This document shows, piece by piece, positions 700 to 44,372 of a stretch of 54,410 nt of DNA. The position numbers and the translations under genes are program-made. The notes beneath the pieces were generated by a model that saw only the letters and a program-made list of their open reading frames with translations, did no database searches and was not told where the DNA came from. The DNA is from Lactobacillus acetotolerans DSM 20749 = JCM 3825 (GTDB lineage: Bacteria > Bacillota > Bacilli > Lactobacillales > Lactobacillaceae), in NCBI RefSeq assembly GCF_001436775.1, contig NZ_AYZC01000004.1, positions 1-54,410 of the forward strand, in the 5' to 3' direction. Every line of letters begins with the position of its first letter. Position 1 is the stretch's first letter.

Positions 700-713
700 A
701 GAACATTTGTTTG
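700..713 (+). promoter_or_regulatory. LexA (SOS) box upstream of lexA
   Basis: AGAACATTTGTTTG matches the Gram-positive LexA operator (CGAAC-N4-GTTCG) at most positions. It overlaps the -35 region of the proposed lexA promoter, as expected for autoregulation, and lies between divergent ynzC and lexA. Confidence 0.7.
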
Positions 714-41092: not shown

Positions 41093-41707
41093 TTAATCCT
41101 CCCTGACCATTTTACGGTAATTATCAATAACCCGCTTCACACTTACATGTTCTGCGTCAACAATTGCTTTAATATGATCAACTGCATTAGCAACAGTATC
41201 ATTAACTACGGCATAATCATAATCTTGCATTACTAAAATTTCTTTACGAGCCTGCCGAATACGACCCATAATAACATCTTCAGATTCTGTTCTCCGATGT
41301 TCTAGGCGCAAATGCAAAGTGTGTAGATCTGGCGGTGTTAAAAAGATAAATACGCCATCAGGCATCTTTTCCCGTACTTTGCGTGCCCCGTTAACATCGA
41401 TTTCTAACAAAACATCATTTCCTGCATCCAGCATTTTTTTAACTGGTGCAACTGGTGTTCCATAATAATGCTTAACGTATCTATTATATTCCAGAAGTTC
41501 GCCTTGGTTAATAGCTTCTTTAAAACGTTTTTCGGTAACAAAGTAATAATCTTTACCATTAACTTCGCCAGGACGAGGTTTACGTGTGGTCATCGACACA
41601 GAATATTCGAACGGAAATACTTTATTTTTAACAATTGCACTTTTTACGGTTCCTTTACCGACACCCGAGGGACCCGAAAGGACGAGTAACAAACCTTTAT
41701 TTGCCAT
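41093..41707 (-). CDS. gmk: Guanylate kinase
   Basis: The 204-residue protein has P-loop [10 protein letters not shown] (11-20), [13 protein letters not shown] and [10 protein letters not shown], as in GMK. It phosphorylates GMP to GDP. TAGGAGAG precedes the ATG. It is divergent from the SOS-box gene, and one LexA-type box lies about 90 bases upstream of its start. Confidence 0.97.
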
Positions 41708-41796: not shown

Positions 41797-41810
41797 CAAA
41801 CACTTGTTTT
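41797..41810. promoter_or_regulatory. LexA-type box 1 (SOS gene)
   Basis: CAAACACTTGTTTT; matches CGAAC-N4-GTTCG imperfectly. It overlaps the -35. Confidence 0.5.
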
Positions 41811-41832
41811 CCTAAACATTTGTTCGTATAAT
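41804..41832 (+). promoter_or_regulatory. Promoter of the SOS-box gene
   Basis: TTGTTT (41804-41809), 17 bases, a consensus TATAAT (41827-41832). LexA-type boxes cover the -35, fill the spacer and lie just after the expected start point. Confidence 0.8.
41813..41826. promoter_or_regulatory. LexA-type box 2 (SOS gene)
   Basis: TAAACATTTGTTCG, ending one base before the -10. Very close to the box in front of lexA (both contain AACATTTGTT). Confidence 0.75.
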
Positions 41833-41841
41833 AGTAAATGT

Positions 41842-41855
41842 CAAACAAGTGTTCG
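41842..41855. promoter_or_regulatory. LexA-type box 3 (SOS gene)
   Basis: CAAACAAGTGTTCG, just downstream of the expected transcription start. A good match to the Gram-positive LexA operator. Confidence 0.7.
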
Positions 41856-41877
41856 AGATTTATGAAAGATGATTTTT

Positions 41878-42186
41878 ATGAAAACTTTTAATTCTTTTTT
41901 AGCCACTGAAATCACAAAACCAATAAAGAAGGTATATCACTACCTATTTGAATACGATGAAGACCGTTTAAGCATCTATGGGCAGTTTTGTGGCAAGATC
42001 TTAGCTTACCTCAGCTACGCACTTTTACACCGCGCCTACGTCTTATTGACCTATCAAGATGGCAGTACCGAAATTGGTCAAATTACTAAGCGGCTTTCTG
42101 CGGACAGATTCGTATTGAGAAGTGAAGATAAAAAGATTCTAAAAATTGTTGATCTAAACGATATTTTTCGGGTAGACCTTTCATAA
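41878..42186 (+). CDS. Putative SOS-induced small protein, possibly YolD-like
   Basis: The 102-residue protein begins MKTFNSFLATEITKPIKK. Its C-terminal half (VLLTYQDGSTEIGQITKRL...ILKIVDLNDIFRVDL) reads as a small beta barrel whose strand order recalls YolD-like proteins, partners of Y-family DNA polymerases; this similarity is weak and by eye. No enzyme motif or membrane helix is evident. The start is uncertain: ATG at 41878 has a poor GAAAG nine bases upstream; ATG at 41869 has none. It stands alone on the plus strand, with a strong promoter under three LexA-type boxes and a terminator, so induction by DNA damage is the best clue to its role. Confidence 0.65.
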   Translation: MKTFNSFLATEITKPIKKVYHYLFEYDEDRLSIYGQFCGKILAYLSYALLHRAYVLLTYQDGSTEIGQITKRLSADRFVLRSEDKKILKIVDLNDIFRVDLS

Positions 42187-42206
42187 TCTAATTACACAAA
42201 ATTAAA

Positions 42207-42240
42207 GGCTAGAAATTTTCCAATTTCTAGCCTATTTTTT
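42207..42240 (+). terminator. Terminator after the SOS-box gene
   Basis: A perfect 11-bp stem (GGCTAGAAATT / AATTTCTAGCC), TTCC loop, and a T-run. It may also serve the convergent ASCH gene. Confidence 0.88.
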
Positions 42241-42688
42241 ATTCTATTTTTGTAAATACTTCACATACAACATTCGTATTCTCATTAAAGATTTGCTTTC
42301 TTTCCTGACATTCTTTAGTAAAGAAATCCCAGTGAACTTTATACCAATATTTATAAGAACGATCGCCTTCACCTTCATGATAAGCATGTTCTTGGGATAC
42401 CTGCTTAAAAGGCATTACTTCATAAACTTTATTCTGAATAACGCAAACTGGATTGAAATCACCATCAAGCACAATACAATACTTACCAACCTGAGAAGAA
42501 CTTTCCGTAGGAACATGGATACTGGTAGTTGCCGTTTTAATTCTACGATTAACCAGATCACTTAACTCATCAGCATCCGCTTTAGTTGCACCAAAAACGA
42601 AAGCTTCATCTAAATCTTGCGGATCTATTTTTCTCTTGTCGCAGAAATTTAGCCAATACTGCTTAACAGCCTGTTCTTTATTAGTCAT
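42239..42688 (-). CDS. ASCH domain protein
   Basis: The 149-residue protein has an ASCH-type layout: VFGATKADADELSDLVNRRIKTATTS, a Tyr-containing GKYCIVLDGDFNPVCVI strand pair and a late YKVHWDFFTKEC. The PUA-like fold is thought to bind RNA or modified nucleosides; some small ASCH proteins are amidohydrolases of acetylated cytidine. Specific function is not visible. It overlaps the recN stop by 8 bases, so it is the last gene of the efp-recN cluster. Confidence 0.8.
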   Translation of the reverse strand: MTNKEQAVKQYWLNFCDKRKIDPQDLDEAFVFGATKADADELSDLVNRRIKTATTSIHVPTESSSQVGKYCIVLDGDFNPVCVIQNKVYEVMPFKQVSQEHAYHEGEGDRSYKYWYKVHWDFFTKECQERKQIFNENTNVVCEVFTKIE

Positions 42689-44372
42689 CTTTTTTATTTT
42701 TGAAACTCTTCATTAAATCTGCAGCATTCTGCTTTGCTGCTTCAGTAACATCATTTCCAGCCATCATCTGTGCGATAGCCGTGATTGTCTCCTTCTGTGT
42801 GAGCGGACCAATCTGAGCGAAAGTTGCCCCATCTTTTATCTGCTTTGCTACCAAATAACGCTGATCCCCAGCAGCAGCAACTTGTGGTGAGTGCGTTATC
42901 GCAATTACCTGCTTATTTTCACCAATTGAATGTAATTTTTCACCGATTGCTGCTGAAACACGACCGGAAACACCGGTATCAATTTCGTCAAAGATCATCG
43001 TTCCAACTGGTTCAACCCGGCTAAAAATAGCCTTTAGTGCCAAGATTAGCCGTGATTGTTCACCACCAGAAACAATTTTAACAAGGGGCATTAAATTCTC
43101 TCCAGGGTTAGGTGCAATCAAAAATACGATTGAGTCTGTACCCTTTTTTGTAAAGGTTTTGGTCTCATCGAAATTAATTGAAAAACGGGCTTTTGCCATA
43201 TAAAGATCAGCTAATTCCTGTTTGATCTTTTCCACTAATTTATGAGCAACCTTTTCTCTTGTTCGGTGAAGACCGCGTGCTTCCTTGGTTAACTTTTCAT
43301 TGAGCTCAGCGACTTGATTTTGCAATTTTTCTTCATCCAAGCCACCAGTCTCATACTGACTAAGCTCTTTTTGTACTTTCTCATAAAACGCAAAAACGTC
43401 TTTTAAGGTCGGGCCGTATTTTTTCTTAAGTGAATTTAAAGTATCTAAGCGATTAGAAACATATTTAAATCTTTCTTCGTCAAAATCCATTTCATCCATT
43501 ACATTGGATAATTCACTGCGAGCATCGCTTAAAGCATAAACGCCATCGTCAACGGTTTTAGCAATATCCTTAAACTTAGAACCATATTCTGTTAGATCGG
43601 CTGCCGCATTTTGTGCATCCCCCAACAACGTGGCAATTCCATGCTCATCGTCATCATATAATTGCATAAAATAATTAGCAGTATCAACAATTTTTTGATA
43701 ATTATTTAGCTCGTTATATTCTTTTTCAAGCTTTTCGTCTTCTTTAGGATCCTTTAAATCGGCAGCTTTTAACTCATTATCCTGAAATTTTAGGATATCT
43801 TGCTTTTGAGCCAACTCTTGTGCATCTTCACGTAAATGTCGCAACCTATTAGTTAATTTTTGCCAATTTAAAAAATCTTTTTGATATTTTGCTAAGTTAT
43901 CCTTAAAAGACTTGGGAGCATAATTATCAACTAAATCAATTTGCCGATCTTGATCCATCAAAATTTGCTGATCATTTTGACCATGAATATCAACTAAATA
44001 ATTACCAATATCGCGCAAAACATTAATAGTTGTTAGTTGACCATTAATCCGGACAACATTACGCCCTTTAGCTGCAAGTTCCCGGCTAATTACAAGCTGA
44101 TCATCAGAATGGGGCAAGCCATATTTATCGCATAATTCGGTGATTTTCTTTTCTTGCCCATCAAGCTGGAACAAGCCGGTAACTACCGCCTTCTTTTCAC
44201 CGGTTCTGATCATTTCTTTTTGACCGCGTCCACCCATAAGGAGTGAAACAGCGTCTATAATGATTGATTTACCAGCACCTGTTTCACCAATCAGAACGGT
44301 CATGTGTTCCTGAAAACGAACCTTCAGTGCTTTTATAATCGCAAAATTTTTGATATCCAGCTCAACTAACAT
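42681..44372 (-). CDS. recN: DNA repair protein RecN
   Basis: The 563-residue SMC-like protein has Walker A GETGAGKSI (about 29-37), two coiled coils, signature VSGGEQSRLILALK and Walker B MIFDEIDTGVSG. It acts early at double-strand breaks. No LexA box is seen directly before it. It follows tlyA by 9 bases; the arginine regulator gene (argR/ahrC), which stands between them in many Firmicutes, is absent. Confidence 0.97.
   Translation of the reverse strand: MLVELDIKNFAIIKALKVRFQEHMTVLIGETGAGKSIIIDAVSLLMGGRGQKEMIRTGEKKAVVTGLFQLDGQEKKITELCDKYGLPHSDDQLVISRELAAKGRNVVRINGQLTTINVLRDIGNYLVDIHGQNDQQILMDQDRQIDLVDNYAPKSFKDNLAKYQKDFLNWQKLTNRLRHLREDAQELAQKQDILKFQDNELKAADLKDPKEDEKLEKEYNELNNYQKIVDTANYFMQLYDDDEHGIATLLGDAQNAAADLTEYGSKFKDIAKTVDDGVYALSDARSELSNVMDEMDFDEERFKYVSNRLDTLNSLKKKYGPTLKDVFAFYEKVQKELSQYETGGLDEEKLQNQVAELNEKLTKEARGLHRTREKVAHKLVEKIKQELADLYMAKARFSINFDETKTFTKKGTDSIVFLIAPNPGENLMPLVKIVSGGEQSRLILALKAIFSRVEPVGTMIFDEIDTGVSGRVSAAIGEKLHSIGENKQVIAITHSPQVAAAGDQRYLVAKQIKDGATFAQIGPLTQKETITAIAQMMAGNDVTEAAKQNAADLMKSFKNKKDD

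Follow-up and report, generated by a model that had tools for sequence, protein, structure and literature searches.

The locus and its promoter

We describe here a small gene of Lactobacillus acetotolerans DSM 20749 = JCM 3825 that encodes a protein of 102 amino acids (aa) and lies within the first 54,410 nucleotides (nt) of contig NZ_AYZC01000004.1, a stretch that is called the window throughout. The gene stands behind a promoter of its own with three LexA-type operator boxes, and we infer from sequence comparison that it is widespread among Lactobacillaceae as part of their LexA regulon, bound by LexA and inducible. The properties that we report for it, namely its boxes, their conservation, its location, the constraint on the gene, the homology of the C-terminal part of its protein to YolD and the absence of the YolD arm motif, are all computed. 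The features of the locus, together with the lexA locus that served as reference, are as follows.

41878..42186, plus strand: the 102-aa gene, alone on this strand between gmk and an ASCH-domain gene, which is followed by recN
41797..41810: LexA-type box 1, CAAACACTTGTTTT, covering the -35 hexamer; 15.3 bits with the lexA-derived matrix
41804..41809, plus strand: -35 hexamer TTGTTT, 17 bp from the -10 hexamer, read from the sequence
41813..41826: LexA-type box 2, TAAACATTTGTTCG, filling the 17-bp spacer and abutting the -10 hexamer; 12.5 bits
41827..41832, plus strand: -10 hexamer TATAAT, read from the sequence
41842..41855: LexA-type box 3, CAAACAAGTGTTCG, directly past the expected start point; 16.7 bits, the top site of the window
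42206..42233, plus strand: intrinsic terminator after the 102-aa gene, with a 12-pair stem and a T run
700..713: lexA box, single, the reference site; 15.3 bits
782..1405, plus strand: lexA, the presumed repressor gene
41093..41707, minus strand: gmk, the divergent neighbour and a locus marker
42239..42688, minus strand: ASCH-domain gene between the 102-aa gene and recN
42681..44372, minus strand: recN, the convergent neighbour and a locus marker

The genes gmk, recN and lexA were named by their sequences. The start codon was placed by eye at 41878, and not at 41869, on the basis of the orthologues and the ribosome-binding site. A promoter with three LexA-like boxes had been described in an original prediction that was made from the letters of the window alone, and its coordinates proved correct. 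A sigma-70 promoter scan called no promoter at the 102-aa gene; TTGTTT matches TTGACA in three of six positions.

LexA-type boxes in the window and the genome

The boxes were scored, as the original prediction had proposed, with a Lactobacillus LexA matrix. This matrix is symmetric, was applied in both orientations and was built from lexA boxes taken from 30 Lactobacillus genomes, the promoter of the 102-aa gene not being included. The 30 lexA promoters were fetched from the 70 genomes with a lexA match, and each of them (30/30) contains exactly one AGAACnnnnGTTTG, with only four distinct boxes among them. Box 3 (16.7 bits), the lexA box (15.3 bits), box 1 (15.3 bits) and box 2 (12.5 bits) are the four best sites of the window, followed by a fifth at 12.0 bits. 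At or above 12.47 bits, which is what box 2 as the weakest box scores, the window holds four sites against an expectation of 1.0, and none of 300 simulated windows contained even two sites of this strength at a distance of 60 bp or less.

Plain patterns were not significant in the window (AACNNNNGTTC, 9 versus 6.5; AACANNTGTT, 5 versus 2.3). A strict LexA pattern returned 12 rows from the whole genome, which correspond to 11 sites, three of them at the 102-aa gene and without a second cluster elsewhere; since the genome count lies below its own control (12 versus 21), only the clustering counts. The other strict-pattern sites lie near recA (L249; recA recognised by eye) and near unassigned or doubtful open reading frames (ORFs). 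Boxes arising by chance are ruled out by the independent matrix, by the simulations and by the promoters of orthologues and of other genera when set against control windows, as described below.

Conserved operator geometry among orthologues

For the comparison within the genus we used 52 orthologue promoters, obtained from 55 genus matches. We left out G057, which a contig end truncates, G071, which contains stops, and G054, which lies at a contig end, and added L026 by hand; L051 holds an N and was scored as having no box, and L007 offers only 85 nt upstream. The box threshold of 11 bits, the 220-nt windows and the start codons were our choices, and because the species are related, counts across genomes are not counts of independent events. 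Two or more boxes of at least 11 bits are present in 47 of the 52 promoters (three boxes in 10), one box in four and none in the N-bearing promoter, whereas among 695 control windows of 220 nt from the same loci none has two boxes and three have one.

The arrangement of the boxes could be measured in the 50 promoters with a TATAAT frame (L005 and L051 have no such frame). Box 2 starts 14 nt before TATAAT in 50/50, with 13-15 nt allowed, and reaches at least 11 bits in 47/50; box 3 starts 13-16 nt past the start of TATAAT in 48/50 and likewise reaches at least 11 bits in 48/50, and both boxes attain at least 9.5 bits in all 50 promoters. Box 1 at the -35 reaches at least 11 bits in only 9/50 and at least 9.5 bits in 13/50. 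The conserved design is thus one of two operators, to which a third is added in L. acetotolerans and a minority of other species. Of the three box positions originally proposed, those in the spacer and after the start point are fixed relative to the -10 hexamer among orthologues, whereas the position over the -35 is not generally kept. The LexA-type control proposed for the gene is supported by the ranks in the matrix scan, by this conserved geometry and by the boxes in other genera. A different arrangement with three boxes, farther upstream of the start codon, was seen in the promoters L044, L049 and L052.

Distribution, location and constraint of the gene

A search with one query sequence found matches in 55 of 75 genomes of Lactobacillus, two of these matches being cut or broken, and in 0/75 others. 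The place of the gene is constant: gmk is divergent in all 50 genus loci that hold gmk, and recN is convergent in 46/46. A profile search among 301 genomes of Lactobacillaceae added 20 genomes in other genera. Nineteen of these matches were fetched (the twentieth lies in a 1410-aa frame) and 14 were used, L174, L176, L178, L186 and L188 being left out as ORF picking gave long or overlapping frames. In the fetched loci recN adjoins the place in 19/19 and gmk is labelled in 18; a umuC match was found in none of the 19.

In 30 further genera we also read the sequence that lies upstream of gmk and found an ORF of the same kind in 18 and none in 12; of the latter loci, in which only the gmk place was read, 10 have no box and two have one. 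Eight of the 18 gmk-adjacent ORFs reach an E value of 0.01 or better with the genus profile, and the remaining 10 were accepted on account of their place, boxes and size. As a group these 10 weak ORFs match the rest at 99.1% (E 2e-18; reversed, 0.3%). In the other genera two boxes are present in 29/32 promoters and one in 3/32, compared with none of 552 control windows with two boxes and 12 with one.

The 20 Lactobacillus genomes without a match could be examined at the gmk locus in 19 cases. Upstream of gmk these 19 loci show no ORF with a profile E value below 1 and no box of at least 11 bits within 300 nt; L193 has one weaker box of 10.9 bits. As the gene-less loci also lack the boxes (19/19), gene and operators come and go together.

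At short range, strong purifying selection acts on the 102-aa protein, with a median dN/dS of 0.068 and a maximum of 0.151 in 57 close pairs (equal length, 75-99.5% identity, dS 0.1-1.5). At longer range, its median identity to the window protein is 52%; the corresponding values are 84% for gmk, from 50 loci, and 75% for recN, from 21 loci. A conserved SOS gene of this kind can be missed because the protein drifts while operators and location stay. The dN/dS values and the orthologues rule out a non-coding or spurious ORF, and a mobile or phage gene is ruled out by the fixed location and by the lack of any tblastn match in phages or plasmids.

Predicted fold and relation to YolD

An AlphaFold2 (AF2) model predicts a low-confidence N-terminal helix, a helix at residues 38-51 and a five-strand Sm/SH3-like barrel at residues 54-101, without a helix-turn-helix. 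In a fold search the barrel shares its fold class with Hfq/Sm and WYL proteins; a BFVD fold search returned generic barrels, mostly unnamed. Family models gave little: Pfam reported no family for the window protein at E values up to 10, no Pfam or NCBIfam assignment could be made for the protein family, and searches of Pfam, NCBIfam and PHROGs yielded weak, scattered matches of one or few members each. We did not count as evidence that one member came near Peptidase_S24 (E 0.016) and one near a model of UmuD (E 0.089). The YolD family PF08863 is neither among the 10 families reported for 39 genus members nor among the best 25 of 29 for the 38 members of alignment A2.

Profile comparisons were more informative. 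They were based on alignment A1 of 39 genus members, from which near-identical sequences had been removed (L226 entered the promoter count and one YolD comparison and is neither in A2 nor in the combined comparison and its splits), on a PF08863 comparison set of 29 after removal of one wrong-strand row, and on a WYL set for which 26 loci out of 30 were used, including a doubtful one. Between the genus family and the family of the other genera the profile match is 97.5% (E 6e-12). Genus and other-genera sequences together match the YolD set at 95.2% (E 2.6e-8) over the C-terminal 74 columns, whereas the same combined profile matches WYL at 6.2% (5.5% without the one doubtful WYL row), and reversed controls stay at or below 1.1%. 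Without the 10 weakest other-genera sequences the YolD match is 94.4%, and with those 10 alone it is 94.0%. The YolD-like barrel that had been suspected in the C-terminal half is supported by profile comparison and by the AF2 model. Membership in the WYL or Hfq families was not adopted: the barrel is of the same fold class, no relation at the level of sequence profiles was found, and the best matches by sequence are an Sm-like chain at E 0.43 and an Hfq chain at E 0.73.

The original prediction had also remarked that no polymerase gene is near. This holds for the surroundings of the gene, as no polymerase gene was recognised by eye among the ORFs of the window, but elsewhere the same genome encodes a polymerase of the UmuC type (Pfam IMS) that shares an operon with a YolD of its own; LexA-like boxes, recognised by eye, precede this operon.

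L067:1467-1826: umuC-linked YolD-like gene, 120 aa, overlapping the end of umuC and encoding the arm motif

We define the arm motif by the regular expression RGxxKW or R[GK]MxKW, and in our reading this RGxxKW-type motif is the YolD arm. Relatives of the umuC-linked YolD occur in 47 of 75 genus genomes, with umuC beside them in 27 of the 30 that were fetched. Its profile matches the PF08863 members at 81.7% over 97 columns. Its model, which is of lower confidence (mean pLDDT 76.5), shows a helix and five strands in the same order as that of the 102-aa protein and has much the same neighbours in the PDB. A PF08863 search of the L. acetotolerans genome gave no match and missed the umuC-linked copy as well. 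As a separate observation, the arm motif is present throughout the 30 loci L068-L097 (30/30) and in the copy at L067, which itself has no Pfam match; YolD may be under-annotated in Lactobacillus.

Taken together, the 102-aa family resembles YolD/YqjX (PF08863) in its C-terminal helix and SH3/Sm-like barrel, its small size and its LexA control. It differs in having no docking arm and no adjacent polymerase, in being unseen by the Pfam model, and in its fixed place beside gmk and mostly recN. The umuC-linked YolD, by contrast, keeps the RGxxKW arm and overlaps the end of umuC.

Proposed role and its alternatives

In Escherichia coli, several operators over one promoter bring about tight repression and strong induction. 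By these rules, two to three operators on one promoter whose spacer is filled should give tight repression and a strong response, and judging from the number of boxes, repression is probably tighter than that of lexA itself. LexA bound over the spacer and the start point, and here over the -35 as well, would keep the gene off, and its removal upon DNA damage would set off a strong burst of synthesis of a small, soluble protein. This protein would be a YolD-like module of helix and barrel that lacks the arm modelled to plug YolD/YqjX into Y-family polymerases. The barrel could act at stalled forks by binding RecA on single-stranded DNA (ssDNA), a polymerase or single-stranded nucleic acid, and may serve alongside the arm-bearing UmuC-YolD pair, in a regulatory or accessory function, and not as an ordinary UmuD-like subunit. 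That the arm is missing makes an ordinary polymerase subunit less likely and suggests that the barrel has an activity of its own; we also counted the neighbouring recN, a repair gene, in favour of damage tolerance. We rank a LexA-repressed, arm-less YolD-like damage-tolerance factor first among the explanations considered and give this reading about an even chance of being correct. More tentatively, the family could be a hitherto unrecognised SOS effector found across the Lactobacillaceae, a YolD barrel without its arm behind its own LexA-locked promoter and in this the mirror image of subunits that consist of the arm only. YolD-like SOS proteins as such are known; an arm-less form with its own promoter and fixed locus would be new.

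Several results speak against a YolD-like damage-tolerance factor. The genus family alone matches the PF08863 members at 23.6%, the umuC-linked set at 0.6% and both together at 59.8%; this genus-only match is weak, and the strong value depends on the sequences from other genera. The arm motif is found in 0/39 genus and 0/32 other-genera members (0/71), compared with 30/30 umuC-linked proteins, and since the arm is absent, the best-modelled route of YolD into mutagenesis is closed to the 102-aa protein. Co-occurrence with relatives of the umuC-linked YolD is loose: among the 61 genus genomes that are at least 90% complete, 34 have both, nine the gene only, eight YolD only and 10 neither (p = 0.014, for species that are not independent). 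This would fit a role independent of the UmuC-YolD polymerase, and a tight link to the umuC-YolD pair, to which co-occurrence lends weak support, was not retained. Finally, the orthology to lp_1611 of Lactobacillus plantarum, which is taken up below, is probable from gene arrangement and not from a comparison of sequences.

An SOS checkpoint protein, that is, a small inhibitor of division (or replication), is an unlikely alternative, which would explain the tight control, the fast drift and the losses of the gene. The two to three operators over one promoter, the lower median identity of the protein compared with gmk at the same genus loci and the joint absence of gene and boxes from the 19 gene-less loci all speak for it. 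The SOS division inhibitor yneA usually lies between lexA and a DUF896 gene, and the gap between these two genes is only 133-184 nt, short for yneA, in 29 of 30 lexA loci, the other locus having no DUF896 match. The same short gap, however, is present in all five lexA loci of gene-less genomes (L106, L116, L121, L122 and L123), and it is therefore no evidence that the 102-aa gene replaces yneA. Against an inhibitor, the barrel is related to YolD, and neither a LysM domain nor a division-inhibitor family is among the families listed for the window protein or the members of its family. At 385-781 of the window, by lexA and the DUF896 (YnzC-like) gene, yneA seems to be missing from its usual place.

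Less likely again is a nucleic-acid-binding regulator, in which an Hfq/Sm- or WYL-like barrel would bind RNA or ssDNA after damage and alter gene expression. The fold class agrees with such a protein, but no sequence-profile link to Hfq or WYL was found, having a small barrel in common shows no function, and the model has no helix-turn-helix. An ordinary YolD, acting as UmuD-like subunit of a UmuC-type polymerase but encoded away from it, is improbable. The barrel homology speaks for it, and Staphylococcus aureus, in which LexA controls both the polymerase and a yolD gene encoded elsewhere (PMC6511836; PMC11442139), provides a precedent. Against it, the genome already has an arm-bearing YolD adjoining umuC, the 102-aa family has no arm motif, our reason for rejecting a plain YolD, and nine of the 43 gene-bearing genomes (at least 90% complete) have no detectable relative of the umuC-linked YolD.

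Relation to lp_1611 and to the role of YolD proteins

The 102-aa family may already have been met in a stress experiment. One study describes lp_1611 of L. plantarum WCFS1 as a hypothetical ORF with a LexA-DinR motif opposite the opu genes, up 32.9-fold in H2O2; the authors considered that it might regulate transcription (PMC2174512). We counted this expression result, the one that bears on the family, in favour of the damage-tolerance reading. At our locus L243 the family gene is flanked by gmk on one side and by an OpuAC-domain transporter on the other, in the same orientation as at lp_1611, and L229 and L247 look like L243 by eye. The 33-fold peroxide response seen for lp_1611 may come from a gene of this family. 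Among the titles listed by a literature search, mostly of open-access papers, no further one dealt with lp_1611 or with a LexA regulon of Lactobacillus that includes a gene of this kind.

The role of YolD proteins is an open question in the mutagenesis of Gram-positive bacteria. For the Y-family polymerases of these bacteria, YolD has been proposed to fill the place of UmuD (PMC6511836; PMC11442139), and two publications of 2026 disagree: a survey assigns polymerase binding, by modelling, to the N-terminal arm and describes subunits that share only this arm (PMC12926913), whereas the other cites an unpublished failure to detect an interaction of YqjX with PolY2 and doubts the complex (PMC13335488). 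If our proposal is correct, an arm-less barrel would uncouple the job of the barrel, be it at RecA/ssDNA or in a checkpoint, from the polymerase. A natural YolD barrel that is LexA-controlled and arm-less could make the function of the barrel testable apart from the arm, and this in food bacteria.

Neighbouring genes and further sites

The ASCH-domain gene of the window is present in only seven of 51 genus loci (80% coverage; some loci end early), so the slot adjoining recN looks variable. In three loci of other genera (L180, L183 and L184) gmk and the SOS gene are separated by a patatin-like gene, recognised by eye. A strong lone LexA-type box of 16.0 bits (L250:1500-1513) is located elsewhere in the L. 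acetotolerans genome, about 20 nt before an unassigned ORF of 178 aa.
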